A DNA stretch of 47,338 bases from Rhodobacter sp. (GTDB lineage: Bacteria > Pseudomonadota > Alphaproteobacteria > Rhodobacterales > Rhodobacteraceae). Position numbers and translations under genes: made by a program. Below, piece by piece: positions 3,035 through 19,421 of this stretch. How positions within the stretch are numbered: position 1 is the stretch's first letter; each line of letters opens with the position of its first letter. The stretch lies in assembly GCA_020251025.1 (NCBI GenBank), contig JADCDI010000090.1, forward strand, positions 1 through 47,338. The letters are read 5' to 3'. The notes under the pieces are model-generated. The model saw only the letters and a list, made by a program, of their open reading frames with translations, did not search any database and was not told the origin of the DNA.

Positions 3035-3518
3035 GTCGCCGGGAACGTTTTCTTTAATTTTATCAGTGAGTTAGGAATATCTTGCGGCCGTGTCGCTTGC
3101 GCTGCGGGTCAAGAGTGCCGTCGTTGCAAGGTGTGACAAAGGCAGAAAAAGGGCAGACATCGGGCGCAGCGAAAGCTCCGTCCCGGCAGAGCATGCGCTC
3201 GTAGAACTTTTCCTGCAGATGGCATGACCCTATCCTAATTGATAGTTGGCCCTAACCTAAAGTTGACATCGGCGACGCAGTGTTCGATTATCGCTGCATG
3301 AGGCGCTGACGGGTCTGCACGCCGCCTGCTTGTGACTGGCATCAAGCCTTCACTTTGAGGTGTGGCTGTTTCGCCCGTATGGCCTGCATGCTGTTTGGGG
3401 TTGCCGCTGTGAGAAGTGATTTCGTTCGGTCTGAGGGGCCTGTGCCGCTGATCCGCTTTACGGTACGAAGGGAAGGTGCGTTCCGGCGTTTCCTTGCGAC
3501 GGATGCTTGCAAGCGGGT
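3035..3518. other. 0.48-kb leader region of the LuxR-type gene
   Basis: No credible gene is seen. It contains a near-tandem pair, CCTATCCTAATTGATAG and CCTAACCTAAAGTTGAC (about 3228-3267), which could be regulator half-sites. A sigma-70-like promoter overlaps its right end. The length suggests a regulated promoter with a long 5' leader. Confidence 0.4.
3263..3291 (+). promoter_or_regulatory. candidate sigma-70 promoter for the LuxR-type regulator
   Basis: A perfect -35 TTGACA (3263-3268) is followed after 17 bases by GATTAT (3286-3291), four of six matches to the -10 consensus. It would give a leader of about 220 bases. Read from sequence only. Confidence 0.35.
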
Positions 3519-4220: not shown

Positions 4221-4221
4221 G

Positions 4222-4241: not shown

Positions 4242-4248
4242 GCCGGTT

Positions 4249-5277
4249 TCAGAAACTTTCCTCGATGCGTCCAAGGCTGCGCAGGTTGGCCTGATAGGCA
4301 AGGTCCTCCTTCAGCAGCCTGAATCGGCCCTCGCTGATCTTTGTCCGCATGGAGTCTGCATTTCGACCGCGGAACGACAGGTATTGAACATCCACAATTC
4401 CGCCACGAAGGCTTTGCCAGACGACGCCGATGATGCTTGCCGCAATCCTGTCATTGACGGACCGGGGATCGCCGGCACCTGTGGCGAACTTTGACAGCGC
4501 CATCAATGCCTCTACAGGGGCAGAGGCGTGAATCGTGGTGATAACCATAGGCCCGCCCAGAGCAATCTGCAGCAACTCTCCGGCTGAACTCTGGTCGCGA
4601 ACCTCGCCGAGGTAGAGGTATCGATAGGCCCAACGCCGCGATGCCTTGATTGCATCGCCGAAAGCCGCATCGCGTACAGAGATCTGATAGATCTGGCCGT
4701 TTTCGTAATAGCCTTCCAAGGCTTTTTCAGGCGGGTCTTCCAAAGTCACGCCAACGCCACCGTGCAGGGTGATCCAGTCCTTGAAACAGGCGGCTGAGGT
4801 TGTGGACTTACCGGACCCGAAGGATCCCGAGACCAGAAGCAGCCCGGATGAGGCACCGATGCGGCGAAGTTCCTCCCGCGCCCAGGCCGGATAGCCCAAT
4901 TGGTCCAGCGATACGCGCCCCGCGTCCACGCGGCGAAGACACCAGTTCCGCCGGGTCTGTGCCAGCGTGGATGCCCGGGGGATTTGAACTGCGGACTCTG
5001 GCGCAGCGATTTGCGAACAGCGGTAGACAAGATTGTCATAGACAAGGTTGAATTCAGGAGCGAAGCGTTCTGCGCTCCACTTCTGTTCGGTCGCTTTCAG
5101 AAGGTTCCGGGCGTCTGACACATAGATTTCCGGAAGAACCGATGGTCCGCGTGACTTTGACGGCCGGATACCTTCGCCCGACAGGTTCAACACCAGAATC
5201 GGGTCAGCGTCATCGGACGACAGGAAGATGTCCGAGAAGAGAATTGAAGAAAGCGGGTGTCCGACAAGTGTATCCAA
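4249..5277 (-). CDS. GspE/PilT-family ATPase, candidate BfpF-like pilus retraction motor
   Basis: A secretion/pilus ATPase of 342 residues. Walker A is GSFGSGKST (151-159), the Asp box TLEDPPE (178-184), the Walker B region LYLGEVRD (222-229) and the His box TTIHA (248-252). It lacks the long N-terminal extension and the tetra-cysteine motif of assembly ATPases such as the PilQ gene here, and its length is close to PilT/BfpF retraction ATPases. Sequence is divergent outside the motifs. The start is TTG 5277, preceded by GGGAA at 8 bases; no ATG exists in the first 60 codons. It is transcribed leftward, 53 bases downstream of the SPOR-domain gene and likely with it. R64 thin pili have no retraction ATPase while EPEC bundle-forming pili do. 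Retraction is inferred from family and context, not shown. Confidence 0.8.
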   Translation of the reverse strand: MDTLVGHPLSSILFSDIFLSSDDADPILVLNLSGEGIRPSKSRGPSVLPEIYVSDARNLLKATEQKWSAERFAPEFNLVYDNLVYRCSQIAAPESAVQIPRASTLAQTRRNWCLRRVDAGRVSLDQLGYPAWAREELRRIGASSGLLLVSGSFGSGKSTTSAACFKDWITLHGGVGVTLEDPPEKALEGYYENGQIYQISVRDAAFGDAIKASRRWAYRYLYLGEVRDQSSAGELLQIALGGPMVITTIHASAPVEALMALSKFATGAGDPRSVNDRIAASIIGVVWQSLRGGIVDVQYLSFRGRNADSMRTKISEGRFRLLKEDLAYQANLRSLGRIEESF

Positions 5278-5330
5278 GGTTCTATTCCCGTATCCGCCTG
5301 CAAGCCTGATGGATGATGCGCCCGATCCGC

Positions 5331-6668
5331 CTATCGGACAATGAATGCGTCTTTGAAGCCAAGCCGGGTCACACGGGCCAAGGCCTCTTTCATGTCCGCC
5401 GGATCGAAGGGGCCGGCCAGGACCATGTGATAGGATGACCCATTCATGAAGGTCTTGCGCAGCTCGCCAGTCATGCCGCCCGACACCAGCATCTCCTTGG
5501 CGATCTGGGCATTTTCGACCGATTTGAAGGTTGCAACCTGCACGTAATCCCCGTCATCCTGACCGCTTGATTTCAAGGGATCGTCAGAGACGGATTTGGT
5601 TGACGGTGTCTGCGCCACTTCAGCGGGTCCGCTTGAGGCAGGTCCGGCAACCGGTATGCCGGGCTTTTCGCCGTCCAAGGCGGCAAGGCCGGTTGCCAGC
5701 GGTTCTTCTGTGGCAGGCACTGCACTGCCAACTGTGCCGGATTCTGCCATGGCCACTTTATCCGACGACGCCATGGCCACGGCAGGGTCGAACGGAAGGT
5801 CGCTGCGCGGATCGGATGGAACTGGTGCCTCTGCCGTGATTATGGCATCGGGATCGCTTGGGATGATATCACCGCCGGAAAGGATAACCTTGGCGCCCCC
5901 CCCCTCCATACGGATTTCCGAGACCAGGCCCAGATTCCCCAACACCGTCCCGGGAGAGACGCGAACGGCACTGAGGGGGTCGTCGACGTTGCGGATCACG
6001 GCCTCATCTGCAGAGGCCTCGAAGACGTACCAACCCGCAAGCAGCTCATTCTGTACAGGCACTTCCGGGATGTCAGACCCTGCCTGTTCCGGATCCAGGT
6101 CCCCGGCAGTCCAATCGCCGACCCACGGCGCTTCCACGGCCAGGGCATCCGCCTGATCCCCGGAGGCGCCGGCAGCCTTCGGATCCTGCTGCGACAGCAG
6201 CAGGAATGTCAGCGCGTCGATCTGCTCCGGCGTCATCTGCGCCAGAATCCGCAGCATTTCCGTGGTCACCACAGGCGCATCCGCCTCTGCGCCGGCCATG
6301 CCAACAGCCGTCCCGGCTGCGGTCCCTTCAAGCCGTTCAACAAGTACCGGATCAAAGCTGCTTTGCACCACATTCAGCCGGTCATTGGCCCCCGGCAAGC
6401 CTGCCGCAGCAGGCTCAAGAAGATCGCCCACCTCCGGTGCGGTTCCTGCCGGTACGCCCGCACCGGGGTAAGACTGCACAGGCGGGGTAAAGGCAAGAAA
6501 ATAGGGCAAGGCCAAAGCCATACTGCCTGCAACAAGGACAATGCGAAACGCCGTTCGACCGAAGATCGGCCGCTTGCCTGCCCTGCCACCATACCCGGCC
6601 TTGCGGGACGATGTTCTGCGGCCATGCCGGGACCGGGCAGAGGTGGGTGAAAGGATTTTTTCCATCAT
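5331..6668 (-). CDS. membrane protein with GspC/PilP-like domain and C-terminal SPOR domain
   Basis: From ATG 6668, about 445 residues. A basic N-terminus precedes one membrane segment (IVLVAGSMALALPYFLAF), then a long Pro/Ala/Ser/Glu-rich periplasmic linker. In the middle, LLAGWYVFEASADEAVIRNV followed by SPGTVLGNLGLVSEI has the look of the small beta-barrel HR domain of GspC/PilP. The last 75 residues (GDYVQVATFKSVENAQIAKE onward) are a SPOR fold, which in known proteins binds denuded peptidoglycan. That suggests a protein tying a pilus or secretin to the cell wall. An ATG at 6773 would add 35 residues; neither start has a clear ribosome-binding site. The gene lies upstream of the PilT-like ATPase and divergent from the muramidase gene. 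Family-level call only. Confidence 0.68.
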   Translation of the reverse strand: MMEKILSPTSARSRHGRRTSSRKAGYGGRAGKRPIFGRTAFRIVLVAGSMALALPYFLAFTPPVQSYPGAGVPAGTAPEVGDLLEPAAAGLPGANDRLNVVQSSFDPVLVERLEGTAAGTAVGMAGAEADAPVVTTEMLRILAQMTPEQIDALTFLLLSQQDPKAAGASGDQADALAVEAPWVGDWTAGDLDPEQAGSDIPEVPVQNELLAGWYVFEASADEAVIRNVDDPLSAVRVSPGTVLGNLGLVSEIRMEGGGAKVILSGGDIIPSDPDAIITAEAPVPSDPRSDLPFDPAVAMASSDKVAMAESGTVGSAVPATEEPLATGLAALDGEKPGIPVAGPASSGPAEVAQTPSTKSVSDDPLKSSGQDDGDYVQVATFKSVENAQIAKEMLVSGGMTGELRKTFMNGSSYHMVLAGPFDPADMKEALARVTRLGFKDAFIVR

Positions 6669-7032
6669 CGTTACGTCTGTGGTTCGGGGGTCTGAACTGT
6701 CCGCAGGGGAGGCACGGCGATCCTGCCGAAATCGGATGGGCGGACCCGCAGCAACTCTAAACGAATCCGCCATCGAAGGAAAGGGTTATGCTTTGCCGCC
6801 CGTCTGCCACGATAGCCGATCATGGATGTTCACACGCCCCCGGGCCTTGAGTGTTTCAGATAGGCGGCTGCCGTCAAGTCCCATTCCCGCTGAATGCGCA
6901 TGATGGTGAGACTTTGGCTCCCTGTGAAAGACAAAGCTCTTGGATTCAGGCATGGAACTGATCTAGTCTTTGCGAAACCGTAAAGGGTAGACGCCGGTGT
7001 GCAAGGCGGGCCTGGGCGAGGGGGGCGGCAGA
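6669..7032. other. divergent control region between SPOR-protein and muramidase genes
   Basis: About 360 bases between two divergent genes (shorter if the ATG at 6773 is used). No clear promoter pair or inverted repeat stands out. It presumably carries promoters for both directions. Confidence 0.35.
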
Positions 7033-7941
7033 GTGCAGGAGCGGGTCTTGCGGGAGCCGTGTTTGACACCACGGCGATGGGCAAGCAAGGTGCGGCGTGC
7101 ATGTGCGGCAAGCCTTGCCTGCAGCTTTGCCGGCCTTCTGGTGCTGGCACCCCCCGCCCTTGCCGACCTGGACCGGCCTGACAAGTTGCGTGTGGCGCTT
7201 TCCGCCGAGGAGCGGCGCGACCAGATCATTTCCCTTCTGGTCCTGCGCGGTGTTAAATCGCCGCTGCTGGAACAGCGCCGCAAAGCGGCCACCCCCGCTG
7301 CGCAAAAGGCCGTGATCCGGCTTATCCCGCCCGGCCCCGCGCAGCCGGACCCGCAGCTTGACCGCCTGCTGTCCCTGATCGCTTCGGCCGAGGCCGGGCC
7401 CGCCGGGTACAATGCGATCCATCATCGCGCCTGGGTGCTGCCCGACAAGGCCCCGACAGAGATGACAATTCAGGAGATCATCGACTGGATCGATGCAACG
7501 CCGCGGCAAAACCATGCCATTGGCCGCTACCAGATCATCCCGATGACGCTCAGCTACCTTGTCGCGGCTGAAAATGTGCCGATGACGGCTGTCTTTTCAC
7601 CCGCGCTGCAGGACAGGCTGGCCGTGCGGCTGATCAACGACGCGGGCCTGCCCGAATTCCTGTCCGGGCAGATGGCCCCGGCAGACTTTCTGGACAGTCT
7701 GGCATTTGTCTGGGCCGGGCTGCCGCTGGGGTCCGGCCTGTCGGCCTATGAAGGGTTTGCGGGCAATTCCGCCACCATTTCACGGCAACACTACGAGACC
7801 CGGTTTGCAGAGATTTTCGGGTTGGGTGCTGCACCGTACGCATCATTGCCCGGCCCAACAGGCCAGAGGGCAACGCCGGTCATCAGGGCAGGGTTGCAAT
7901 CACCGGCGTTCCGTCCAGAACAGCCGGAGCAGGTGCCGTAG
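7033..7941 (+). CDS. secreted GH104 (phage lambda R-like) lytic transglycosylase, PilT position
   Basis: A peptidoglycan-cleaving enzyme, likely opening the wall for pilus assembly. After a signal peptide (ACAASLACSFAGLLVLAPPA, then ALA), the catalytic part matches the lambda endolysin R pattern: SAEAGPAGYN with the presumed catalytic Glu, AIGRYQIIPMT (lambda GAGRYQLL), FSPALQDRLAVRLI (lambda FSPKSQDAVAL), then FVWAGLPLGSGLSAYEG (lambda NIWASLPGAGYGQFE). R64-type systems carry a different, VirB1/Slt-like PilT; a lambda-R type is unusual. Start: GTG 7033 has GAGGGG at good spacing; GTG 6997 is also in frame. Its 3' end overlaps the convergent pilM-like gene by 59 bases. Enzyme family is well supported by motifs; the pilus role comes from context. 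Confidence 0.8.
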   Translation: MQERVLREPCLTPRRWASKVRRACAASLACSFAGLLVLAPPALADLDRPDKLRVALSAEERRDQIISLLVLRGVKSPLLEQRRKAATPAAQKAVIRLIPPGPAQPDPQLDRLLSLIASAEAGPAGYNAIHHRAWVLPDKAPTEMTIQEIIDWIDATPRQNHAIGRYQIIPMTLSYLVAAENVPMTAVFSPALQDRLAVRLINDAGLPEFLSGQMAPADFLDSLAFVWAGLPLGSGLSAYEGFAGNSATISRQHYETRFAEIFGLGAAPYASLPGPTGQRATPVIRAGLQSPAFRPEQPEQVP

Positions 7942-8356
7942 CAAAGGATATGGTACCAATGGTCGATACCAGATCAGTGCCATTCCATATCCCGTAGGTG
8001 CCGCCGCTGAAATCCATGCGCGCCAGTTCGCGGGGGATGGATGACATCGCGATGCTGCTGATCGTTGTTGGCAGCGCAGGTTGGGTGATTGGGATATAGG
8101 TGATGACCCATGCCTGCCCGGTACTGTCGATGGCTTCCCGGCTTTGCCAATCAAGGACCCTGGCAAAGGGGGCCATTTCCGGGTTCAGGACCGGGGCTGG
8201 TGTTGCCCTGTACTGCCCGACGGCAAGGGTGTGGTACCGCACCATGTTGTCGGCGGCATAGCGCCGTTCGTTCGCATCGGTCCGGTCGAAATTCGCCGTG
8301 GCGACGTAGCCTGCCACCAGAACAGAGGCCATAAGCGGGGGCAACAACAGGTTCAT
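7883..8356 (-). CDS. pilM: PilM-like type IVb pilus protein
   Basis: A 157-residue protein with one N-terminal membrane segment (LLLPPLMASVLVAGYVATAN), then a soluble domain including MVRYHTLAVGQYRATPA and a C-terminal beta-rich part (WVITYIPITQP, GGTYGIWNGTDLVSTIG). Size, topology and position beside pilV match PilM of R64-type pili, a small anchored protein of unclear role. It could instead be a minor pilin-like protein, but no prepilin peptidase site is visible. ATG 8356 has GAGGAG at 8 bases. It is translated 31 bases after pilV and is surely co-transcribed with it. Its last 59 bases are antisense to the end of the muramidase gene. Moderate confidence in the name. Confidence 0.6.
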   Translation of the reverse strand: MNLLLPPLMASVLVAGYVATANFDRTDANERRYAADNMVRYHTLAVGQYRATPAPVLNPEMAPFARVLDWQSREAIDSTGQAWVITYIPITQPALPTTISSIAMSSIPRELARMDFSGGTYGIWNGTDLVSTIGTISFATAPAPAVLDGTPVIATLP

Positions 8357-8387
8357 CGGTCGTGCTCCTCAGGCCGGCGCTCAAATC

Positions 8388-10001
8388 TCAACTGCACCAT
8401 GTCTGCACAAGAAGCTTTGCATTCACCGGATTGAGGACGGTATTCGTGGCACCGGTCAGATTGAACGGGGGTGATCCCACCGTCAGCTCAAGGTCGACGT
8501 TCCAAGAACCGGTCACAGGGGTGGAAACAACCTGCTGCTTGCGCACGTCGGTCGCTTCGTAAGACATCACTGAGGCCGCCATTTTTGCCGAATATCCGGT
8601 GGGGCAGACAGGTTTTGGAACGGTCACTGGGGCATTGCCGACGGGAAAAGTATAGACATCGCTGTTGGAGAGCCAACCTTCGATGTCTTCTCCCTTCAGC
8701 TTCAAGTTGCCAGCGACGTCTGCGCTTGCTGCAGTCATGGCACCGCCAACGGTCACGTTCTGGGCAAAGGATGCATTATCTGAAACGACAAGACCTTGCA
8801 ACTTCGTCGATGGACAGTCAACGTTGATCTCATTGGCTGCCGAAGCAGTCGCTGCGCCCGCCCCGCAGGCCAGCGAAAGAACGTTGCGTATCTGCGCGCC
8901 GGACCCTGCGACGGGGGCGGCAAGGCTGATGCTGTGGACATCCGCCAGACCAGGCCGCATGTCTGGTGTCCCGTTGCCATCGCTGTCCCAGGCGGCGAAC
9001 GTGATACCGGAAAACATAAGGCCACTTTGCCGGCACGCAAGGTGCTGGGGCGTGTTGGGTGTGACGTCCGCGCAGCGGAACGCACTGTCGCCCGCCCCCA
9101 CAAGGGCCGCGCCTTCGGACAGGGCCGGACGATCCTGCAGCGCGATGAGCGAGGCAAGCCGCCCCGCCTGCACGGCGGGTTGACCGCCAAGTTGCAGCCC
9201 AATGTAAGGTTGCAGCGGCAACGACCACGCCGCGAAGGGGCCGGTTGCCCTGAAGGGCCCAGTCCAGGCAGGGTCGTTCATGACCGGCGCAGGACATCCG
9301 ACGGGAAGGCCGCCTCCCGGCCCGGTGATGTAGCCGGCCGCAACGGTTTCTGCCTGCGACGCAATACGTGGCCCCTGCACGGCGGGGACGATCACGCAAG
9401 GATCAGGGCCTGTCGTCACCAAAAGCACCTCAAGGTCGATCTCGTCATCTGCGGGATCGCGGTTGATCAGTGCGGGTCTGAAAACCTCGGGGGGGCCAGG
9501 AAAGAAAACCGCCGCTGTCTTGTTTTGCGTGGCGGGAAAGCGATCGGCGACCGGCAGAGACAGGTTTCCGGCATCATTGCGAAGCACTGCGCGCATCACC
9601 AGCGAGTAATCCAGCGTGCCCACAAAACTTTTCGGGTTCGACGTGCCCGCGAATCCCTGGGGCAAGAAACCGGCGGCGACAACCTGGGCGATCGGAAGCA
9701 CGGCAATCATCGGATCGTTCGTTGCGGTGGTCGTAAGCAAGTTGTTGAGAAGGGCATCATAATTGGCGGCGACAAAGGCCTGGCTGGCCGAAGTCACCTG
9801 CCGCAGCTCTGCCGCGAAAGCGGTTCGTTCGCGGCGCACCTGTTCTTCGCGCAGAAGCCCGATGGAAAAGGTCATGACCAGAGACACGAGCGTGATGTAA
9901 AGCACCATTTCGATCAGCATGGTACCCCGCCTGCGGCGCAAGGTGCCGCGCCGCTTGCGCACCGCTGCGTCTGCCCGATTGCTGACCCCGGATATCAACA
10001 T
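8388..10001 (-). CDS. pilV: PilV-type minor pilin (shufflon-family N-terminus), candidate tip adhesin
   Basis: A prepilin of 537 residues. The leader is basic (RKRRGTLRRRRG) and cleavage is expected after Gly26, giving mature TMLIEMVLYITLV with Glu at position 5, as processed pilins need. The long body (PKSFVGTLDYSLVMRAV, GYITGPGGG) and the segment NASFAQNVTVGGAMTAASA fit the PilV N-terminal family of R64-type pili, where PilV selects recipient cells. The C-terminus is Cys-containing (PVCPTGYSAK, VQTWCS). No recombinase gene or inverted sfx-type repeats are nearby, so a single fixed C-terminus is expected. Start: ATG 10001 preceded by GGAAGG; upstream in-frame ATGs at 10040 and 10097 exist. 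It is divergent from pilS. Confidence 0.85.
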   Translation of the reverse strand: MLISGVSNRADAAVRKRRGTLRRRRGTMLIEMVLYITLVSLVMTFSIGLLREEQVRRERTAFAAELRQVTSASQAFVAANYDALLNNLLTTTATNDPMIAVLPIAQVVAAGFLPQGFAGTSNPKSFVGTLDYSLVMRAVLRNDAGNLSLPVADRFPATQNKTAAVFFPGPPEVFRPALINRDPADDEIDLEVLLVTTGPDPCVIVPAVQGPRIASQAETVAAGYITGPGGGLPVGCPAPVMNDPAWTGPFRATGPFAAWSLPLQPYIGLQLGGQPAVQAGRLASLIALQDRPALSEGAALVGAGDSAFRCADVTPNTPQHLACRQSGLMFSGITFAAWDSDGNGTPDMRPGLADVHSISLAAPVAGSGAQIRNVLSLACGAGAATASAANEINVDCPSTKLQGLVVSDNASFAQNVTVGGAMTAASADVAGNLKLKGEDIEGWLSNSDVYTFPVGNAPVTVPKPVCPTGYSAKMAASVMSYEATDVRKQQVVSTPVTGSWNVDLELTVGSPPFNLTGATNTVLNPVNAKLLVQTWCS

Positions 10002-10698
10002 TCCCGCACACCTTCCGTCCCGACGCCGTTCGCCTGCCATCCGCACCGCCCAGCCCTGATCGGCAGCCCGTTGAGCCTGCCCGCCAACATGGATCATGAA
10101 TCGCCCCGGAACGGAGCGGCTTCAGCAGAGCAAACCGGAATATGACAGAAAGCCTGAGCCTTCGCCACACCTTTGTTCACAGGGCATCCGGGCAACTGCA
10201 GCCCGTACCGCAATCCTGTGACCCGTCCAGAAGGGCAGAATACAATGTCCTGCCGTGAGGCATGAAGACCGGGTGAATGACATGCCGGGCGCTTTCACAC
10301 CCCCCAACGAAACCGGGCGAGGGGCAAGGACAGGGGCATGGCAAGGTCAAGGCAGAAACCTTTGCGGACGCAGCATCGCCCCGGCCGGCAAAGGGCGCAG
10401 GGCGCCGGCACCCGCACAGGTTGCAGGCGTGACGTCGGGCTCCAAAACAGGGCTTTCCTTTGCTGGTTGTTTGCAATATCATGACTTTGTGAAGTGCCTG
10501 TCTTGCCATCAGCCGCCTCCGTGCGGCCAGGTCGAAGGCGGGCATCTAACCAAAAGGACAGGGTGATACCGGCGGCGTTCTGGTATAAAAGAAAAGACGG
10601 CCCGATCAATGGCTTGGCTTAAGGCTGTAAAGGTTAAGCGCCGATTAACCTCAGGTTGTTGGATCGGGGTGACTCACATGGTAAAGAGGACAAAACCC
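10002..10698. promoter_or_regulatory. 0.7-kb divergent pilV-pilS control region
   Basis: The region separates the two pilin genes and contains no credible gene. It holds a TATAAA (10584-10589) lacking a good -35 partner, and a CtrA-type box near pilS. It probably carries promoters for both pilin transcripts. Confidence 0.55.
10632..10650 (+). promoter_or_regulatory. CtrA-type box upstream of pilS
   Basis: GGTTAA-N7-TTAACC is a perfect inverted repeat whose core, TTAA (10634-10637), seven bases, TTAA (10645-10648), equals the CtrA consensus of alphaproteobacteria. It ends 49 bases before the chosen pilS start. A promoter activated from here would start near 10675, in line with translation from ATG 10699. 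Confidence 0.6.
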
Positions 10699-11331
10699 AT
10701 GACATCTCTCTCTACTCTGGCACGGGCCGCCCGGCTTGGTGCCGCCCGCAAGCGCGGCGTGACGCTGATCGAAGCGGTTCTCTACATCTCTATCGCCCTG
10801 GCGCTGATCGTCGGCGGTCTGGTGTTCTTCCAGCAGGCCTCGCTGGCCCAGCGCACGAACTCTGCGGTCCGCAACATTTCGGCCATCGCCTCGGAAGCGC
10901 GCGGCCTGTATCAGGCGTCACAGAACTTCAACGGTTTGACGCAATCAACCCTCATCAACGCCGGCGCGGTTCCGACTTCGATTGTCAACGGGGCAAACCT
11001 TCAGAACGAATGGACCGGTGCCATTACGGTTGCGTCCAACGCAACGGGCGTCACAAGCGCCGACGACTCGTTCTTCGTCGTCTACGAAAACGTTCCCACA
11101 TCGGCCTGCACCCGTCTTGCGTCGGCTGATGGTTCTGGTGCCGGTCGGGTCGGGTCCGGTATCGTTTCCGTCGGTTTCCGCAATGGCGGAACCACCGGTA
11201 CCTACACCACCTATCTCGCTTCCGGAAGCTTGTTGACCCCGGGTCTGGTGTCAGGGTACTGCAACACGGCTGCGACAGCGACCGGGGGGACGGCGGGCAT
11301 TGTAGATATGCAGTTCCTGTTCGCGCGCTGA
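10699..11331 (+). CDS. pilS: PilS-type type IVb major prepilin
   Basis: Major pilin subunit. From ATG 10699 the leader has 20 residues ending in AARKRG; cleavage gives mature VTLIEAVLYISIALALIVGG with Glu5, the hallmark of pilins, and a longer leader than type IVa, as expected for type IVb. The globular part includes ARGLYQASQNFNGLTQSTLI and the PilS-family pattern FFVVYENVPTSACTRLA. Two Cys (in PTSACTR and in SGYCNT near the C-terminus) are placed to form the usual disulfide loop. Start: ATG 10699 has AGAGGA at 8 bases; ATG 10678 and 10609 are in frame but less likely. It heads the rightward pilus cluster, with a CtrA box upstream and a strong hairpin after the stop. Confidence 0.9.
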   Translation: MTSLSTLARAARLGAARKRGVTLIEAVLYISIALALIVGGLVFFQQASLAQRTNSAVRNISAIASEARGLYQASQNFNGLTQSTLINAGAVPTSIVNGANLQNEWTGAITVASNATGVTSADDSFFVVYENVPTSACTRLASADGSGAGRVGSGIVSVGFRNGGTTGTYTTYLASGSLLTPGLVSGYCNTAATATGGTAGIVDMQFLFAR

Positions 11332-11349
11332 TCCAAAGGCCTTATGGCT

Positions 11350-11373
11350 GGTCCCGTCCGTCCGGGCGGGACC
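11350..11373 (+). terminator. hairpin after pilS, likely attenuator or stability element
   Basis: GGTCCCGTCC-GTCC-GGGCGGGACC forms a 10-bp stem with one G-U pair and a 4-base loop, 18 bases after the pilS stop. No U-run follows. This would allow abundant pilS mRNA with partial read-through to the assembly genes. Confidence 0.6.
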
Positions 11374-11525
11374 GCTCGGCGCATTTACTCTGCGTCGAAG
11401 TTGCGGAACCAGCAAAGTAGAATCGCACCGGCAAGAACGATCACAGAATCAGCGGTGTGGCGGTGAGGATGAAGGCAGATCAAGGTCCCCGCTAAATTAG
11501 GTCGGCTTCGAGCAGGAGCATTTCG

Positions 11526-11966
11526 TTGAATACTTCAGGCGTTTCTCGGCTTTTGCTGTCTTGTTGCTGTGCCATATCAGCCACTGCGGCGCATCTGCGG
11601 TTCCTTGTGCCAGTGCTGTTGCTGACAACAGCTCTGTCCGGTCAAGCGGTCCCATCTTTCGCCGATGCCGGGGGCACTGGCAGCGGTGAACCCCCCGTGC
11701 GCACGGCGCGCGGCTGGGCCGCGATGTCCGGTAGCGACCTGAAGGGGACGCTGGACGGATGGGCGCGCGCCGCCGGGTGGACCCTGGTCTGGGACAGCCC
11801 CGTCAACTACCGTCTGCGCGCCTCGGCCCAGTTCGGGGGCGATTTTGAAACGGCCGTGGCCAGCCTTGTTGATACAATCCATCGTTCCAACCCCGAGGTG
11901 CTGGTTACGATGTACCGGGGCAATCGTGTCGTTCATGTCGAAACGACTTTGGTGGAGACAAGATGA
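11526..11966 (+). CDS. pilL: TcpQ/PilL-type periplasmic pilus protein
   Basis: A short exported protein (146 residues) with a signal peptide (LRFLVPVLLLTTALSGQAVP, then SFADAG) and one domain, GWAAMSGSDLKGTLDGWARA through ETTLVETR, matching the TcpQ C-terminal family: a small domain with the WxxAAGWxLxWD-like signature (GWTLVWDSPVNYRL). In TCP and R64 systems TcpQ/PilL helps place the secretin; R64 PilL is longer, so this is a minimal form. Start: TTG 11526 is supported by AGGAG seven bases upstream. The stop overlaps the pilN start (ATGA), so the two are translationally coupled. Confidence 0.75.
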   Translation: MNTSGVSRLLLSCCCAISATAAHLRFLVPVLLLTTALSGQAVPSFADAGGTGSGEPPVRTARGWAAMSGSDLKGTLDGWARAAGWTLVWDSPVNYRLRASAQFGGDFETAVASLVDTIHRSNPEVLVTMYRGNRVVHVETTLVETR

Positions 11967-13513
11967 TGCGTCCTTCCCGTGCTTTTCTGCGTGCCGCTGC
12001 GCCGCTTCTGTTGGCCTTTGCCCTGATCGGTTGCGACGGCACCCTCCAGCGGTCGCAGGATTCCGTCGCTTCTGCCAATGCGCGCACGGCGCAGCTGAAC
12101 AACCAGTTCTATTCGCGCCCGCCCGTGCGCGCCGGCGGGGCCCAAACCTCGGGTGCCAATTTTGTCGCGCCTGAGATTGTGGAGCTGAAATCATCCGACC
12201 GGCTGCCTGCCAGCGCCGAGACGTCAACCTCTGTGGTCCTGATCTCCCGCGATCCGTTGAGGCTGGCGGATATCGCCGCCCGCCTGTCCGAGATCACCAA
12301 GATCCAGCACAGCGTGGAGCTGGGCCCGCGCGGAACCGAGGTTCAGGCCGGCGCTGATGCAGGCGCTGATGCCGGTGCCGGTGCCGCTTCCGGTTCGGCT
12401 TCCGGCACCTCGCGCGCCGGGTCGCTTGCCATCCGCCCCAGCCTGCGCGGATCGCTGTCTTCCGTGCTTGACAAGGTGGCATCTGCCTTTGATGTCGAAT
12501 GGACATACAAGGACGGCCGCGTGGTTTTCCGCGACTATGTCACCCGGCAATATCAGCTTTCGGCATTGCCGGTAACGTCGTCCATGGGTTTCGGTGCGGT
12601 CGGGACATCGTCATCCTCCAGCCTTGACATGTGGGAAGAGTTGGATCGAGGCTTGAGGAACGTCGCAGGGCCGGATGCGGATGTTGCCATCGGGCAGGGC
12701 ACCGGGATACTGACGGTCACAGCGCTGCTTTCGGACCAGGAACGCATCCGCGATTATGTCTCCACCATGAACCAGACACTGGGCCAGCAGATTGCATTTG
12801 ACGTGAATGTGCTGACGGTGACAGCCCAGGACGCGGAAGGCTACGGCGTGGATTTGCAGAATCTTTCCTTCGCAAACAACGACGGCAGCGTGGAGTGGAT
12901 CGGCGGGCGTGACGTTGCCGGTTCTGTCGGAACGGTCAACGTGGGAATCGTGAGTGGCGACTTCAATCTGGATGCCGCGATCACTGCCCTGTCGACGCGC
13001 GACAATGTCTCGGTCGAAACCCGTGCCGGTGCAACAACGACCAATTTCCAGATGATCCCGGTCGAGGTTGTTGAGGAAACGGCCTATGTATCAGAAGTCT
13101 CGGTCACGATAGATGAAAACGGAAACCCCGTTCAGTCGCTGTCAACCGACACGATCACGACCGGTTTCCAGATGCAGTTGCTGCCCCGCGTCCTCAACAG
13201 CAAGGAAATCCTGCTGCGCTATTCCCTTGACCTGTCGGACCTTTTGTCCATTGAGACCTTCGAATCCGGCGACTCGGTCGTCCAGTTGCCCGAGGTGACG
13301 CGTTCGAAGTTCGAACAGCAGGTCATTCTCAAGAACGGGCAAACCCTGGTCCTCTCCGGGTTTGAGCGCCAGCGGACCGAGACCAACAGGGAAGGGGTTG
13401 GGTCGCCCACATTCCTGGGTCTGGGTGGCGTCGCCGAAGGGAACATCCGGCGGGCATCGAACATCGTCTTCATCACGCCGCGAATCCTGTCCCGAGATTT
13501 GACGACCAATTAG
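11963..13513 (+). CDS. pilN: PilN lipoprotein secretin, outer-membrane pore of the type IVb pilus
   Basis: Outer-membrane secretin (516 residues). A lipoprotein signal ends LIGC with Cys24 as the lipidation site. The N-terminal half carries the periplasmic domains; a small-residue-rich stretch (GADAGADAGAGAASGSASG) sits at about 132-150. The C-terminal half is the secretin core: VETRAGATTTNFQMIPVEVV, then TTGFQMQLLPRVLNSKEILL, then LPEVTRSKFEQQVILKNGQT and NIVFITPRIL. The lipobox and length fit the PilN/BfpB family. It overlaps the upstream tcpQ-like gene by four bases and lies 13 bases before pilO. Confidence 0.93.
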   Translation: MMRPSRAFLRAAAPLLLAFALIGCDGTLQRSQDSVASANARTAQLNNQFYSRPPVRAGGAQTSGANFVAPEIVELKSSDRLPASAETSTSVVLISRDPLRLADIAARLSEITKIQHSVELGPRGTEVQAGADAGADAGAGAASGSASGTSRAGSLAIRPSLRGSLSSVLDKVASAFDVEWTYKDGRVVFRDYVTRQYQLSALPVTSSMGFGAVGTSSSSSLDMWEELDRGLRNVAGPDADVAIGQGTGILTVTALLSDQERIRDYVSTMNQTLGQQIAFDVNVLTVTAQDAEGYGVDLQNLSFANNDGSVEWIGGRDVAGSVGTVNVGIVSGDFNLDAAITALSTRDNVSVETRAGATTTNFQMIPVEVVEETAYVSEVSVTIDENGNPVQSLSTDTITTGFQMQLLPRVLNSKEILLRYSLDLSDLLSIETFESGDSVVQLPEVTRSKFEQQVILKNGQTLVLSGFERQRTETNREGVGSPTFLGLGGVAEGNIRRASNIVFITPRILSRDLTTN

Positions 13514-13526
13514 GGAATGGGCCGAA

Positions 13527-15068
13527 ATGTCTGGTTTCCTTGACAGGCTGAAGATCAAGAGAACGCCCAAAGCCAAAGCTCCGAAGTCCGAGAGTTCCGG
13601 GAAGGGGCCTTTCTGGGCACGAAAGAAGGCACTGGCAGAGTCGAAGGCGGGGGATGACACCTCTGGTGAACCTGTTCCGCCAAGAAAGCCGGCCAAAGGT
13701 TTGACCTGGCGCAGGGCCACGAAAAAACTTGCCCCGGTAGACCCGAAGCTGCCAGGCACCTCCGGTCCCGCACCCGTGATCTACGATCTGGATGCGGACA
13801 GTCTTCTTTCCGGGGGCCGTCGCAAGATGGCGATTGGCCTGTTGTGGCAGCCCCGTTCCAGCGGTCAGGCGCTGCATGTGCAGGCGAATGCTGCTTCGGT
13901 TGGTGATACGGTCCTTGACCTCAGCGTATTGAACGCCGGTGGGGCGCAGGTTGGCTTCGCGTCAAAGATGGACGCCCATAAAGACGGGATGGTGGCCGCC
14001 GCCACGGCAATTTCCCGGGACTATGTCGGGGATACCTGGCTTGCTGCCTTCGTGCTGCCTGTTGCCGGGGATCAGCTGCAGTTGGCATGGTGGATCGTCG
14101 CCCGTCGCGATGGCATGATTTACGAAGACCGGGTGGTGCGCAACGAAATCGAGGCGCGCGAAAGCTTTATCGATCTGTATGACGCCCCCGGCTGGCAGAC
14201 GGTGATCTGCCCGTCGAACTGGCAGATCAGCGGATCATATGACATCGCCTTGGGCTATCTGATCCCACCCGGCGCAAAGGGTGCGGCGCTGAGATCGCAC
14301 AATCCCGTCATGATCTGGGCGCCGCGGGCGATTGCGGCGACCGTCGTCATTGGCGGGTTGCTTTTTGGATATAACTATTGGCGGAACATTCAGGAGCAGA
14401 TTGCCCTGGAAGAACAGGCCAGGTTGGCGCAATTGGAACTCGAAAGGCTTGAAGCACTTCAAGTCCCGCCGTGGGATGGGATGCCCGGCCTGATGGATTC
14501 TGTCATGGCCTGTGCGGCCCTGATCAATGAACTCCAGGTCAATCCGCCGGGCTGGATCCTGGATCCCTTGACTTGTACGGTTTCGAAAGGGTCCGTTTCG
14601 GCCAGTGCCACGTGGAAGCGACAGGAAGGGACAAGGGCAAAGTATCTGTACAGCGCGCTGGATTTGCGGGGGCTGCCGGTGCCGCAGTTTGATGTGACTC
14701 TGGGTGTGGGGTCCCTCACGCGCAGTGCGGCGATTGCGGCGAATGACTGGGGCGAAAACCTTGAGCCGCTTGACCAGAACGAGATGTTTACCCGGCTTGT
14801 GCACCGCTTCGACACCTTGGCGCTGCCACTGGTTCTGACCGCCCAGGTTGCCCAACCGCCCGCGCCGGACGCTTCGGGTCTACCGAATCGCAAGATTTGG
14901 AACTATCATTCGATTGAACTTGAATCCTCGGTCTTTCCTGTGGAGCTTATCTCTCTGATCGGCGATATCCCTGCGGTCGTACCGAACACGCTTGTCTACA
15001 CTCCGAGTACTCAGACATGGAAGCTGACTGCTTTCATCTATCATCCGCCCATTATCCAGACGAGTTGA
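13527..15068 (+). CDS. pilO: PilO-type inner-membrane pilus assembly protein
   Basis: About 513 residues. A basic N-terminal cytoplasmic tail (KIKRTPKAKAPKSES) leads to a cytoplasmic actin-like-looking half (residues about 85-265). A single membrane segment follows (AIAATVVIGGLLFGYN, about 269-285), then a coiled stretch (EEQARLAQLELERLEAL) and a periplasmic half with scattered Cys (VMACAALIN, DPLTCTVSKG). This architecture and the place between secretin and PilP match R64 PilO (BfpL/TcpL-like), which connects ATPase and secretin. Sequence is divergent, so the call rests on topology and gene order. It ends two bases before pilP. Confidence 0.75.
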   Translation: MSGFLDRLKIKRTPKAKAPKSESSGKGPFWARKKALAESKAGDDTSGEPVPPRKPAKGLTWRRATKKLAPVDPKLPGTSGPAPVIYDLDADSLLSGGRRKMAIGLLWQPRSSGQALHVQANAASVGDTVLDLSVLNAGGAQVGFASKMDAHKDGMVAAATAISRDYVGDTWLAAFVLPVAGDQLQLAWWIVARRDGMIYEDRVVRNEIEARESFIDLYDAPGWQTVICPSNWQISGSYDIALGYLIPPGAKGAALRSHNPVMIWAPRAIAATVVIGGLLFGYNYWRNIQEQIALEEQARLAQLELERLEALQVPPWDGMPGLMDSVMACAALINELQVNPPGWILDPLTCTVSKGSVSASATWKRQEGTRAKYLYSALDLRGLPVPQFDVTLGVGSLTRSAAIAANDWGENLEPLDQNEMFTRLVHRFDTLALPLVLTAQVAQPPAPDASGLPNRKIWNYHSIELESSVFPVELISLIGDIPAVVPNTLVYTPSTQTWKLTAFIYHPPIIQTS

Positions 15069-15070
15069 TC

Positions 15071-15760
15071 ATGGTATCAAGCAAAGCTCAGAGTCGTTTC
15101 GTTCCGGGAAGGGCTTTCCTGCGCCGGCGTCGTCTGGCTTACGGCATTTGTGCGGGTGTGGCAGCGGCGTTTTGGGTTGCTTCCGTCATGCCCTCTGCCG
15201 GTCCGGCATCGGCCCAGGATGCAACGCAGCCCGGACAGGTGCAGCCGCCGGGCGCTCCGGCGCAGGCGGCACAGCCGACTACGGATCCCATCACCAATGC
15301 GCAGATCGAACTGCTGAAGGAAAGCGGGCTGATCGACCAGCAAAGCAGGTTGAGCGAAGGACTTCTGTTGATGGAACGCCAGCTTCGGCAGGCGCAACTT
15401 GTCGGACAGCTTATTGCCGTGCTTGGGCCTGACGCCCAGATCGAGGTGACGCCCGGCGAATTCAAAAGCTTCGCCGACACCCCCGCAGGATTGCAGCAGC
15501 GGATCGAATACCTCAGGCTGCAGAAGGAGCTTCAAGCGGCGAAGGCGGAAACCGGCGTGGCGCAGGAATCCCCGACCGAGATCAGTGAGATTTACGGTAA
15601 ATCGGATGATCTTGTTGCCGTGATAACAGTTGACGGTCGCCGCAGGGCCGTATCACTTGGCGATCAGCTTGAAGACGGAACAGAAGTTCTGAGCATTTCA
15701 GCAGAAAGGGTCGAACTGCAGAGTTCTGATGGAACCCTGCAAGTGCTCAAGGCACCTTAA
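15071..15760 (+). CDS. pilP: PilP-type periplasmic pilus assembly protein
   Basis: A 229-residue exported protein: signal-anchor (LAYGICAGVAAAFWVASVMP), a Pro/Gln-rich linker, a helical region (ITNAQIELLKESGLIDQQSR and LLMERQLRQAQLVGQLIAVL), and a C-terminal PilP/GspC-like mini-barrel (SEIYGKSDDLVAVITVDGRR through VELQSSDGTLQVL). PilP in R64-type systems links the inner-membrane complex to the secretin. ATG 15071 is preferred; an in-frame ATG at 15017 lies inside pilO and would spoil the signal peptide. It sits 44 bases before pilQ. Confidence 0.85.
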   Translation: MVSSKAQSRFVPGRAFLRRRRLAYGICAGVAAAFWVASVMPSAGPASAQDATQPGQVQPPGAPAQAAQPTTDPITNAQIELLKESGLIDQQSRLSEGLLLMERQLRQAQLVGQLIAVLGPDAQIEVTPGEFKSFADTPAGLQQRIEYLRLQKELQAAKAETGVAQESPTEISEIYGKSDDLVAVITVDGRRRAVSLGDQLEDGTEVLSISAERVELQSSDGTLQVLKAP

Positions 15761-15804
15761 GCGCGGGGTGCTGAGGCGGCGATGGAAGATGCGGGGCAAT
15801 TCTG

Positions 15805-17427
15805 GTGCAGATTACCGCTGAAAACATAGCAGACCTGGCGTCGGACTGGGGCCTTGCATCTGGCCCGGGTACGTCGATCGAACTTGGACCCGACCAGCGA
15901 AGGACGATAGCCGTGTTCAAGAACGGCATCGTACTTGTCGCAGAAGGTCAGCGCCACGCGGCGGAGGCAAAGGTGGTGATGGACAAGGCCCGGCGCCTTG
16001 GAATCCGTCTCACCGAGGTGAGAGAGCTGAAGACCACCGTCATTGAGCAGGTCTATTCCGGTGCCGAACCCAGGAAGGCTTCGGTCAACTGGAAAAACCT
16101 CGACCTTGACCGTCAGAAATCCCTCGCGCGGATTGTCAGCGAGGCAAGCCAGCTTGGCGCGTCGGATGTTCATATCCGTGTGCTGGAATCGCATACCGAA
16201 GTGAAGGTCCGTGTCAACGGCCGCATGCGGGAGTTGGGAAACGAACCCGCATCGGACGGCCAGGAGATGATCCGCGCAGCTTTCGCGGTGTCGTCCGGAC
16301 AGGGTGCCAGCGGAACGGACTCCACGTTCCAGCAGGGGGCCATGTTCCAGAAGTCGGGGCTGCTTCCCGACAATGTCGAAATGCTCCGTCTGCAATACAC
16401 GCCGACATCGGATCAGCGCGGCGCGCTGGTTATGCGTCTGAAATATGTGGGCAAGAACATCGACACCGATGTCGACTCGCTGGGCTATTCGCAGCAGCAG
16501 TCGATGGACCTGAAGAACATGCGGCTGAAGACCAACGGCATGTATATCTTTGCCGGAAAGGTGTCATCGGGCAAGACGACCACGCTGCAACGCTGCCTGA
16601 ATGCGATGTATCTCGACAAGAAGAAAGAGATCAGCATTTACGCCGCCGAAGACCCGAAAGAGCTGGAGCTTCTTGGCGCGATCCAGGCGCAGATCACAGC
16701 GGGGCAAAATGCGAACGACGCCTTCAAGATGGCAATGAAGGCTGCCTTGCGTTCCGACCCGAACGTGATCGTTCTCGGCGAAATCCGGTCAGAGGAATTG
16801 ACTTCAATGGCCGTCGAGGCGGCAAAGACCGGTCACGCGCTGTGGTCAACGGTTCACGCGGGATCGGCACTTGGCATCCTCAACCGTCTTATCAACCTGG
16901 GCGCAGACCGCGAGGATCTGAAGGACCCCCGAACAGTGGGCGGGCTGATCTATCAGCGCCTTATCGGCGTGCTGTGCCCCAACTGCAAGGTGGCGCTGCC
17001 CGAGGCCGTAAGGACCAACCTTGTCGAGGAAGATCTGGCCCTGCGTCTGGTGAAGCTGACCGGGCAGAACCCGAACGAGGTCTTCTGCCGCGGGCCTGGG
17101 TGCTCGTCTTGTTTCATGGGCCTTGCCGGCCGGACGGTGGTTGCCGAAACGATCCGTCCTGATGCGCGTTTGCTGGAAACCTATATGGATTCGTCGCGCA
17201 TCGAGGCGGAACGCTATTGGATCAAGCCAAAGGAAGACGGTGGACTGGGCGGGGCACCCGTCATGCACCACGCCTTGGTAAAGGTGGGGGCAGGTATCGT
17301 CGATATCAACGAAGTGCAGGAAGAAGTCGATCTTCTTGAAAGCTATGAGCGCGACCTTTCTTATCTCACGGATCGGCTTCGCTCGGAAATTGCCGCCTTC
17401 CGACAACAACAAGGCAGGAAACGCTGA
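15805..17427 (+). CDS. pilQ: PilQ assembly ATPase of the type IVb pilus
   Basis: Hexameric GspE-superfamily ATPase powering pilus extension (540 residues). Walker A is AGKVSSGKT (250-258), the Asp box YAAEDPKE, Walker B VIVLGEIRSEE (about 320-330) and the His box STVHAGS. A zinc-type tetra-cysteine motif follows, CPNC at about 391 and CRGPGCSSC at about 428, typical of assembly rather than retraction ATPases. The N-terminal 150 residues are family-specific, with ASQLGASDVHIRVLESHTEV beginning the conserved N2 domain. The start is GTG 15805 with GCGGGG upstream; no in-frame ATG occurs nearby. It is coupled to pilR through TGATG. Confidence 0.93.
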   Translation: MQITAENIADLASDWGLASGPGTSIELGPDQRRTIAVFKNGIVLVAEGQRHAAEAKVVMDKARRLGIRLTEVRELKTTVIEQVYSGAEPRKASVNWKNLDLDRQKSLARIVSEASQLGASDVHIRVLESHTEVKVRVNGRMRELGNEPASDGQEMIRAAFAVSSGQGASGTDSTFQQGAMFQKSGLLPDNVEMLRLQYTPTSDQRGALVMRLKYVGKNIDTDVDSLGYSQQQSMDLKNMRLKTNGMYIFAGKVSSGKTTTLQRCLNAMYLDKKKEISIYAAEDPKELELLGAIQAQITAGQNANDAFKMAMKAALRSDPNVIVLGEIRSEELTSMAVEAAKTGHALWSTVHAGSALGILNRLINLGADREDLKDPRTVGGLIYQRLIGVLCPNCKVALPEAVRTNLVEEDLALRLVKLTGQNPNEVFCRGPGCSSCFMGLAGRTVVAETIRPDARLLETYMDSSRIEAERYWIKPKEDGGLGGAPVMHHALVKVGAGIVDINEVQEEVDLLESYERDLSYLTDRLRSEIAAFRQQQGRKR

Positions 17428-18500
17428 TGGAATTCAATGCGTTCGAACGCTGGTTCGCAAAGGCGCAGTTCGGCTTTGAGGCCCGTACGAAATTCTACCA
17501 GGAGCTTTCCGCCCTGCTGCGGTCCGGTATGTCCAAGCCGGATGCCGTCAGCCTGTTGCAGGTTGTTGCAAGCGATGAGGGCAGGAAGAAGAAGGACGCG
17601 ATGTCGATCGTCCTCTCGTCCATACTGCGCGACATGCGCAATGGTAAATCCTTTGGGGAAGCGGTCCGCAGATGGGTGCCGTCTGATGACCGGATGGTCC
17701 TCGAGGCTACAGAAAACTCGGATGATTTTCCCGGTCAGCTGGAAGAGTATTGCCGAACCCTCAAGCAGAAGCGCAAGATCGTAGGCACCATTGTCGGCGG
17801 CCTGTCCTATCCGGTTTTTCTTGTTCTGATGGTCACGGGCCTGCTGATTTATTTCGGGCTTTACATCGTTCCGGATATCGGAAAACTTCTGCCGCCTGAA
17901 AAGTGGACCGGGGCGGCCAGGTTCCTTGCTTTTCTGGGTGATTTCGCCACGAATTACGCCGTTCCGACGATCATTTCCGTCACCGTTGTTCTGACCATCG
18001 TGATGATTACCTTGCCGCGCTGGACAGGGCGCGTGCGGCGTTTTTTTGACTATCTTCCCATATATGCGCTTTACCGCGTCTATACCGGGATCTCTTTCAT
18101 TCTGGCCATCTCAAGTCTGATGCGCGGCGGCATGGCACCGATCAATGCTGTCGAACGGATTCTGCCTTTGGCAACGCCCTATGTGAAGGAAAAGCTGTTT
18201 GCCATCCGCCGTGGCATGCTGAACGGACAGGACTTTGGTGAAGCGCTGCACAGCAACGGGCGAACCTGGCCCGACTATAACATGAATCTTTCCGTCAAGA
18301 TTTTTGCGCGCACCCAGGACCTGTCGCGTCAGCTTGCCCGGCTTGCGCAGGACTGGCTTAACCTGAACCAGGAAAAGATCGAACAGCGCATGGCGACGGC
18401 GCGAAACGTGTCACTGGTTCTTGTGTTTCTCGTCATCATCGCCATCGTCGCCGGCATGTATTCGGTTCAGGGACAGATCAGTGAAGCCGTCCAGCGATGA
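17427..18500 (+). CDS. pilR: PilR (GspF-family) inner-membrane platform protein
   Basis: Integral membrane platform on which the PilQ ATPase acts (357 residues). Two GspF repeats are seen: FYQELSALLRSGMSKPDAVS (about 24-43) and the second, GISFILAISSLMRGGMAPIN. Membrane segments are SYPVFLVLMVTGLLIYFGLY, VPTIISVTVVLTIVMITL and VSLVLVFLVIIAIVAGMYSV. Length and repeat layout match PilR/BfpE. Start TGATG overlaps the pilQ stop, and its own stop overlaps the next gene (ATGA), so it is a tight operon member. Confidence 0.92.
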   Translation: MEFNAFERWFAKAQFGFEARTKFYQELSALLRSGMSKPDAVSLLQVVASDEGRKKKDAMSIVLSSILRDMRNGKSFGEAVRRWVPSDDRMVLEATENSDDFPGQLEEYCRTLKQKRKIVGTIVGGLSYPVFLVLMVTGLLIYFGLYIVPDIGKLLPPEKWTGAARFLAFLGDFATNYAVPTIISVTVVLTIVMITLPRWTGRVRRFFDYLPIYALYRVYTGISFILAISSLMRGGMAPINAVERILPLATPYVKEKLFAIRRGMLNGQDFGEALHSNGRTWPDYNMNLSVKIFARTQDLSRQLARLAQDWLNLNQEKIEQRMATARNVSLVLVFLVIIAIVAGMYSVQGQISEAVQR

Positions 18501-19339
18501 GCAGCATACCGCCGTCAGTCTGGCTGTTCTGCGCCTGTGCGGTTTTTGCCCTGGTGGCACGCATCAGTGTGGAAGGCCTGGAAAGCGGCAACGCTGCCCT
18601 TGATCGCCTTCCGTTTGTCAGTCTGGTTTTGGTGTCTTGCCTTGCATCGGCGGCTGCCCTTTACTTCGGCAGGTCTGATGAGCAGCAAGTTGGGCCGCAG
18701 ATGGTCCACGCCTTCCTGGTCGGTCAGCTTGCCATGGCAGGATGGATTGACCGTCAGACGACCTGGGTTCCCGACAGCGTTCTGCTGATGGTCCTTACGG
18801 TTTCCTCGGCCTTTGTGTTCACGCATGGCACTGAGCCGATCACTGTGCTGCGCCTTTTCGAGGGCCTCGGCGGACAGGGTGTGGCTGACTTTCTGCGTCA
18901 GCGTCCCACCATATTGCTGATTGTGCTGAGTCTTGCCGCCGGGTTCGCCATCTGGCTGGTTTTGCTGCTGCTTTGGGGCCTGCAGACAGCAATACGAAAG
19001 GAGCTGCTCACCCCGCCCGATATGGTGGCCCTTGGCCTGCCGATCTATCTGCTGGGGATCGCGCCGGAAACCGGCCTTGTCTATCTGGCGGCCGTCTGTC
19101 TGGCCCTGACAGCGCAAAGAAGCGATTTTGTCCGTTCTGTTTTCAGCAATCCGGAAGCCGTGAAGGAAGGAAAGGAGCATCTGGGCCTTGATGCGAACAG
19201 CCCCGCCATTGCAGTGTTGTCGCTGATGTTTTCAATTCTGGCAGTTGTCATCGTGGCCCTGGTGCCGTTGCAAGCTGCACTCGGAAAGTTCTTCAGTTGC
19301 ACAGACCCCGGATTCGCGGGGTCTTTCATCTGTCCTTAA
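18497..19339 (+). CDS. pilU: divergent A24 prepilin peptidase-like protein (PilU)
   Basis: A 280-residue protein with seven or eight hydrophobic segments. Two membrane-proximal Asp residues stand where type IV prepilin peptidases have theirs: Asp85 in GWIDRQTTWVPD (family: D-x-R-T-x-x-I-P-N) and Asp175 in LLTPPDMVALG (family: G-x-G-D-x-K). In the second motif both Gly and the Lys are lost, so the enzyme is divergent. The position after pilR matches pilU of R64. It could be active as the PilS/PilV leader peptidase, or be a degenerate homologue with the housekeeping PilD/CpaA doing the work. It overlaps pilR by four bases, and its last codons contain a terminator-like hairpin. Confidence 0.7.
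   Translation: MSSIPPSVWLFCACAVFALVARISVEGLESGNAALDRLPFVSLVLVSCLASAAALYFGRSDEQQVGPQMVHAFLVGQLAMAGWIDRQTTWVPDSVLLMVLTVSSAFVFTHGTEPITVLRLFEGLGGQGVADFLRQRPTILLIVLSLAAGFAIWLVLLLLWGLQTAIRKELLTPPDMVALGLPIYLLGIAPETGLVYLAAVCLALTAQRSDFVRSVFSNPEAVKEGKEHLGLDANSPAIAVLSLMFSILAVVIVALVPLQAALGKFFSCTDPGFAGSFICP
19303..19324 (+). terminator. terminator-like hairpin inside the 3' end of pilU
   Basis: AGACCCCG and CGGGGTCT form an 8-bp perfect stem with a 6-base loop, followed by TTC. It overlaps the last codons of pilU and likely ends the pilus operon. Confidence 0.5.
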
Positions 19340-19421
19340 TGGTATGGCACTACGCGTGGGTTTACGGGGTCGGTTCTCTTCATCATTTGTCGGGGTTCAG
19401 ACGAAAGAATAAGGTGCTGTC

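Follow-up and report, generated by a model that had tools for sequence, protein, structure and literature searches.

Can the pilus of a conjugation machine outlast the transfer genes, and what would it then do for the cell? The question is raised by a locus of 15 genes (bases 3507-20099) in contig JADCDI010000090.1 of Rhodobacter sp. (assembly GCA_020251025.1), which a first-pass annotation, made from the letters alone, had described as a complete type IVb (T4b) pilus locus of the class of the R64 thin pilus and the bundle-forming pilus (BFP). The stretch analysed, called the window below, is the entire contig (C122, 47338/47338 bases). R64-class pili stabilise mating pairs via PilV adhesins, and PMC9045228 describes the PilV adhesin of TP114 and R64. 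We favour, with a probability of roughly 0.6, the reading that the locus specifies a self-contained T4b pilus which derives from an I-type (IncI/Dot-like) conjugation pilus and would now serve cell attachment and aggregation.

Class of the pilus and its departures from R64

The genes were identified with Pfam and NCBIfam family models and by pairwise profile comparison with hhalign, in which four control pairs scored 0.1-0.3%. Except for PilU, the full core set from TcpQ/PilL to PilV was recognised by these models and by alignment to R64 profiles (Table 1). In the hidden Markov model searches PilS, TcpQ and PAP_PilO scored above the family cut-offs and PilN (TIGR02520) and PilP (TIGR03021) below them; PilV was recognised by hhalign. 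The PilN-family model reached 209 bits against a cut-off of 287.65 and was the best family for 11963-13513, while PilP, PilV and PilM have no naming Pfam match and take their identity from profile alignment to the R64 families. Both prepilins carry a class III leader: RRRRG^TMLIE in PilV and RKRG^VTLIE in PilS, where the first mature residue is not Phe and the leader length of 20 residues hinges on the inferred start at 10699. Searches of PDB profiles matched PilS to bundlin (1zwt, 5e-4) and to PilS (1q5f, 0.015). The top NCBIfam score of PilQ was with the type IVa (T4a) PilB model, at 158 of 675.65 bits and far under the cut-off. An ATPase tree of 57 rows, midpoint-rooted and with PilT labels taken from TIGR01420, splits (100/99) into a PilB/GspE/PilQ side of 27 rows and a PilT/DotB/Tad side of 30 rows; PilQ lies inside the former, in a fork of 18 PilQ rows (91/94) with other T4b PilQ proteins. 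The locus thus combines a PilS/Bundlin-type pilin, a PilN-type secretin with TcpQ and PilO2, and a T4b PilQ ATPase, and neither best family matches nor tree position placed it with Tad pili, type II secretion systems (T2SS) or T4a pili. Taken together, the family models, the profile comparison and the tree support the assignment to the R64/BFP class made at first pass.

The locus shares PilL/TcpQ, PilN, PilO, PilP, PilQ, PilR, PilS, PilV and a PilM-like protein with the thin pilus of R64 (IncI1). It adds a PilT-side ATPase that the first-pass list lacked, a SPOR protein and a pair of LuxR proteins, and its gene blocks lie on both strands. It lacks a shufflon, Rci and an SLT-type PilT, tra genes are absent from the window, and no window match was seen for R64 PilI, PilJ or PilK. 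The parts do not match those of R64 exactly: besides the extra motor and the missing shufflon, the muramidase differs, which scored 1.1% against R64 PilT in hhalign and was ruled out as its homolog; it resembles a phage endolysin (phrog_90) instead, with relatives only in the related loci L015 and L017. Relatives of the SPOR protein were found in L015, L016, L017, L018 (weak) and L020. When open reading frames (ORFs) of at least 100 residues from 50 kb of R64 were compared with the 419 ORFs of the window at E 1e-3, matches were confined to pil proteins and TraJ, the latter through its ATPase domain. No Rci homolog was found among the 419 ORFs at the same threshold, and there was no shufflon-like repeat set at 7700-10700. 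The first-pass statement that the window holds no transfer or recombinase genes is borne out to that extent; the R64 relaxase falls outside the comparison, since the 50 kb include merely the last 90 bases of its gene, nikB. In R64 pilU adjoins pilV, as it does in six distant PilU homologs (G299-G304).

In L016 three tandem pilV-like genes occupy 887-7430 on the minus strand. They may possibly provide tip-adhesin diversity through gene duplication, an alternative to a shufflon.

The likeness to BFP lies in the major pilin, which the Bundlin model matches (8.9e-14), and in the presence of a second, PilT-side motor ATPase. BFP has a second motor too, BfpF; in contrast to BFP, the TcpQ, PilO2 and PilV of the window follow the R64 pattern. 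Tad pili are a type IV filament reported within the same order, Rhodobacterales, in PMC8383342. The T2SSE ATPases of the window's own genome are the pilus pair alone, and there is therefore no detectable TadA.

The second ATPase and PilU

The family profile of the second ATPase had absorbed PilQ rows and merely served to locate T2SSE ORFs; a separate alignment (A3) was scored for the tree. The five second ATPases of Paracoccaceae fall into a single group (100/99) within the PilT side and join those of T4b loci from two Pseudomonas, Stutzerimonas and Glomeribacter (99/84). The second ATPase of Marinobacter, on a long branch of the PilT side, joins next (100/99), while that of L056 (Yersinia similis, open at the contig end), one of the six sampled, groups with R64 TraJ, unlike the window's. 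The T4b loci with which the second ATPase is shared differ in their core: 13 Paracoccaceae pili stand as one clade (100/100) on a long stem of their own in a tree of PilN, PilQ and PilR (27 rows, L038 having been dropped out of 28). In PDB profiles PilT ranked first (4.1e-19) and GspE was nearly as close (8.4e-18), so that the argument for the PilT side is carried by the tree. Its position there makes the second ATPase a likely retraction motor. It is a rare gene, found at E 1e-30 in 4 of 295 genomes of the window's family, the own genome included (seven candidates scored per genome). The idea that it had replaced a type IV secretion system (T4SS) was dropped, as L018 holds both.

A T4b pilus is expected to have a prepilin peptidase of family A24, and no Pfam match to Peptidase_A24 was found in the window's own genome. 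Such matches are also absent from 8 of 10 relatives, and in the other two they lie on contigs other than that of the pilus. The candidate for this role is PilU (18497-19339), for which Pfam searches up to E 1 returned no family. A profile built from the window and L015-L018 detected a single copy in 8/8 pilus genomes (E 8.9e-108 to 9.3e-6; the own genome and G298 are in the profile) and none in 20 family genomes without a PAP_PilO match, at E up to 1. Enzymes that process prepilins use two aspartates and carry a GXGD motif. In PilU the only aspartates identical in all 11 aligned rows are D85 (WIDRQTTWVPD) and D175 (TPPD). A link to the A24 family runs through the homolog L121, which an A24 profile free of PilU rows reached at 4.8e-5 and which is tied to the window PilU profile at 7.9e-17; several of the next-ranked, non-significant matches of the same A24 profile were PilU homologs, L015 at 0.12, the window PilU itself being non-significant. 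When five PilU proteins were scanned with Pfam at E up to 10, one of them gave a single A24 match (0.022). Alignment with hhalign of five PilU rows to the A24 family scored 4.8%, only around the first aspartate; with 11 rows and the same A24 alignment the value rose to 71.3% over 38 columns at that residue, but was 6.5% in global mode. Values of 99.5-99.8% were discarded as circular, the enlarged A24 profile having absorbed PilU homologs. An AlphaFold2 model from five sequences had a mean predicted local distance difference test (pLDDT) score of 45.7. Given the conserved pair, the phyletic pattern and the link through L121, PilU is very probably a divergent A24 prepilin peptidase with PPD in place of the second motif.

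Relatives and the fate of the transfer machinery

With the PilN alignment as query, genome contigs yielded 112 encoding relatives, 80 of which were kept, 14 of them Rhodobacteraceae/Paracoccaceae loci (L015-L028). Genome searches took 10 of these 14, leaving aside L021, L023, L027 and L028 (contigs of at most 8.1 kb), and likewise the more distant same-family locus G109 (L011). The locus is rare, with PAP_PilO in 5 of 198 genomes of the family, the own included. The divergent gene blocks noted at first pass are real: L015 has the identical gene order, and in L016, L017 and L018 the accessory genes for the second ATPase, PilU, the PilM-like protein and PilV are all kept but rearranged. Within the Paracoccaceae clade of the pilus tree the window groups with L015, L016 and L017 (100/100); this group is referred to below as the window's clade. 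The gene most diverged between the window and L015 is pilS, with 62% identity and a dS of 1.06 against 0.31-0.71 in the other 14; pilin allelic exchange is a possible cause.

Because the window is a whole contig, its lack of transfer genes is of little weight by itself and called for a genome-wide check. The source genome (3.32 Mb, 131 contigs, completeness rated 99.99%) has two T2SSE ATPases in total, both inside the pilus locus, and hence no DotB-like ATPase in the T2SSE search. No I-type transfer system of the kind that accompanies the R64 pilus was seen in it: neither of the coupling proteins PF02534 and TrbC gave a match, in searches that did not cover relaxases, VirB4 or F-type coupling proteins, a gap to be set beside the counter-evidence below. 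TrbC, the I-type coupling protein, was found in 7/7 searched sister genomes outside the window's clade (G298-G304) and in 0/4 distinct genomes inside it (G000, G274, G295, G296, G297; 12 handles were searched, and G274 is apparently the same genome as G295, with equal contig number, size and position). In sister genomes, seven regions surrounding additional T2SSE ATPases were taken; among the proteins scanned there, at scores below the curated cut-offs, L106 has DotB, DotD and TrbC, L108 DotD and TrbC, and L112 DotB. In Defluviimonas salinarum (L018/G298), TrbC and DotB flank the pilus on both sides on a single contig. As the absence of TrbC coincides with the window's clade, a single loss of the transfer machine appears to be the simplest history, in a tree whose root is not firm. 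The counts of TrbC and the lack of any other T2SSE ATPase lend weight to the idea of a domesticated pilus, already put forward at first pass; its role we infer.

Several observations weigh against this picture. All TrbC matches (best 1.7e-64) lie below the curated cut-off of the model, and one of 14 control genomes, from Sulfolobus, also responded, at a lower level and under the cut-off. An assembly in 131 contigs could miss a mobile element. Neither the placement of L018 nor the root of the pilus tree is secure (70/49), and that tree comes with warnings on long branches and composition. Finally, L018 has the second ATPase together with T4SS genes, and the motor is thus not specific to the conjugation-free state.

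The claim that the locus sits on a chromosome goes too far for the window contig; the chromosomal evidence comes from relatives. The locus of L017 (=G024/G297) lies on a contig of 252,848 bases together with CTP synthase (locus L012) and is therefore very likely chromosomal, and in L022 the pilus is on a record titled chromosome 1. That record, from G301 (3.64 Mb), has the pilus core at ~2.90 Mb (L022), TrbC/DotB at ~2.97 (L106) and pilU-pilV at ~2.71 (L124): it is one machine dispersed over the chromosome.

Table 1. Genes of the pilus locus, with positions in the window and the evidence for each
Feature	Position	Strand	Evidence
LuxR-family regulator 1	3507..4220	+	Pfam GerE 1.5e-14; L015 ortholog at equivalent place
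Second motor ATPase, 342 aa, PilT-side	4249..5277	-	T2SSE 1.7e-18; tree position
Protein with C-terminal SPOR (peptidoglycan-binding) domain	5331..6773	-	Pfam SPOR 3.6e-5, above cut-off
Muramidase, endolysin-like, in place of R64 PilT	6997..7941	+	phrog_90 endolysin 6.9e-14
PilM-like protein	7883..8356	-	hhalign vs R64 PilM family 91.9%, E 7e-7
PilV-like minor pilin/tip adhesin, probable start near 10001	8388..10097	-	hhalign vs R64 PilV family 99.3%, E 3e-20; leader motif
PilS major pilin, probable start 10699	10609..11331	+	Pfam PilS 7.5e-18, Bundlin 8.9e-14
TcpQ/PilL-type secretin partner	11526..11966	+	Pfam TcpQ 8.1e-22, above cut-off
PilN secretin lipoprotein	11963..13513	+	TIGR02520 1e-61, below cut-off; Secretin 1e-10
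PilO2	13527..15068	+	PAP_PilO 6.6e-22, above cut-off
PilP	15017..15760	+	TIGR03021 2.7e-5, below cut-off; hhalign vs R64 PilP family 98.3%
PilQ assembly ATPase	15805..17427	+	T2SSE 2e-57; tree: with R64 PilQ and other T4b PilQ
PilR inner-membrane platform	17427..18500	+	T2SSF 9.4e-21
PilU, probable divergent prepilin peptidase, candidate Asp pair D85/D175	18497..19339	+	Conserved Asp, phyletic pattern, A24 link via L121
LuxR-family regulator 2	19422..20099	+	GerE 2.2e-17; ortholog in L015, relative in L017

The divergent blocks are 10609-20099 (plus), 10097-7883 with pilV and the pilM-like gene (minus), 6997-7941 with the muramidase gene (plus) and 6773-4249 with the genes of the SPOR protein and the second ATPase (minus). 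Beyond the locus, transposase-like ORFs lie at 30783-35165, one of them matching a Pfam DDE transposase, and a piece of 133 bases (33063-33195) recurs outside the locus in L015. The end of the window (35243-47338), with a G+C content near 0.70 over much of its length and matches to phage tail, amidase, methyltransferase and tape-measure proteins, reads as a prophage or a gene-transfer-agent-like cluster that is truncated where the contig stops.

Role of the pilus and its meaning

From the sequences and the roles of their families, the following working order can be proposed. PilU would cleave the prepilins PilS and PilV, PilQ would drive assembly of the pilus on the PilR platform, and PilN with TcpQ would form the outer-membrane channel, aligned by PilO2, PilP and PilM. 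The muramidase and the SPOR protein may open the cell wall and anchor the machine in it, and PilV, by analogy to R64 and TP114, would be the adhesin cap. The second ATPase, judging from its place in the tree, would depolymerise the pilus and pull cells in; the two LuxR proteins, from their position, may control expression. If the transfer machinery has been lost, as it appears, and a retraction-like motor retained, the most economical role is attachment and aggregation.

A retraction motor would also suit a pilus that brings DNA to the outer membrane for import by ComEC, and the own genome has a ComEC match. ComEC, the competence gene searched for, was likewise present in 3/3 tested family members without PAP_PilO and missing in 6/7 TrbC-positive pilus genomes; it does not track the pilus and proved uninformative as a marker of function, which leaves DNA uptake an unlikely role. 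(ComEC gave no match in G299-G304, which have pilus and TrbC, and was present in 8/8 other genomes tested.) Slightly less probable still is an R64-like mating-pair pilus of a conjugative element, one that is present intermittently or escaped assembly. The I-type T4SS genes of the sister genomes, and those flanking the Defluviimonas pilus above all, speak for it; the lack of TrbC throughout the window's clade, the absence of PF02534 and of any further T2SSE ATPase from the own genome, and the CTP synthase on the contig of L017 speak against it.

That the machine exports a passenger protein, in the way that the toxin-coregulated pilus (TCP) secretes TcpF (PMC9565799), seems improbable. A subtilase gene (6-2078) does lie left of the locus, and L019 has a subtilase-like ORF scoring 79 bits close to its pilus, but the examined DNA of L016, L017 and L018 gave no subtilase match, L015 is cut where the gene would lie, and the locus showed no recognisable passenger gene, although no search was aimed at passengers. 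Least credible of all is a decaying, non-functional remnant of a conjugative island: the transfer genes do seem gone, yet each of the 15 genes has an open reading frame and evolves under purifying selection, the ratio of nonsynonymous to synonymous substitution rates (dN/dS) against L015 running from 0.03 (PilQ) to 0.38 (PilM-like). We thus return to a former conjugation pilus that would serve attachment and aggregation. Framed for a T4b lineage of Alphaproteobacteria (Paracoccaceae), the proposal would be of an ex-conjugation pilus that lost the transfer machine once, kept its retraction motor, uses a prepilin peptidase family invisible to standard models, is the only type IV filament of the window's species and serves the cell; for all these parts together we consider the odds even.

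PilN-like secretins are encoded by plasmids of Azospirillum, Methylorubrum and Bosea (in Bosea one carries a PilN-family annotation), and PilQ-like matches occur in Bosea and Methylorubrum as well, so that the class itself is not new in Alphaproteobacteria. By the account of a type IV filament survey (PMC6668835), descriptions of pili as T4b had been confined to Gammaproteobacteria; the survey adds Acidithiobacillia and Nitrospirae and regards T4b pili as abundant in Proteobacteria. Among the papers listed by searches of the open literature, none was seen to report an R64-type pilus from Rhodobacterales, subscription journals lying largely outside those searches. The T4b model of the survey makes the prepilin peptidase gene pilD mandatory, and as PilU is missed by Pfam, systems of this kind may be under-counted. 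The locus offers a tree-anchored case of a conjugation-system pilus seemingly kept after the transfer machine was lost, and with PilU a family that Pfam misses and whose function could be probed at its two aspartates.

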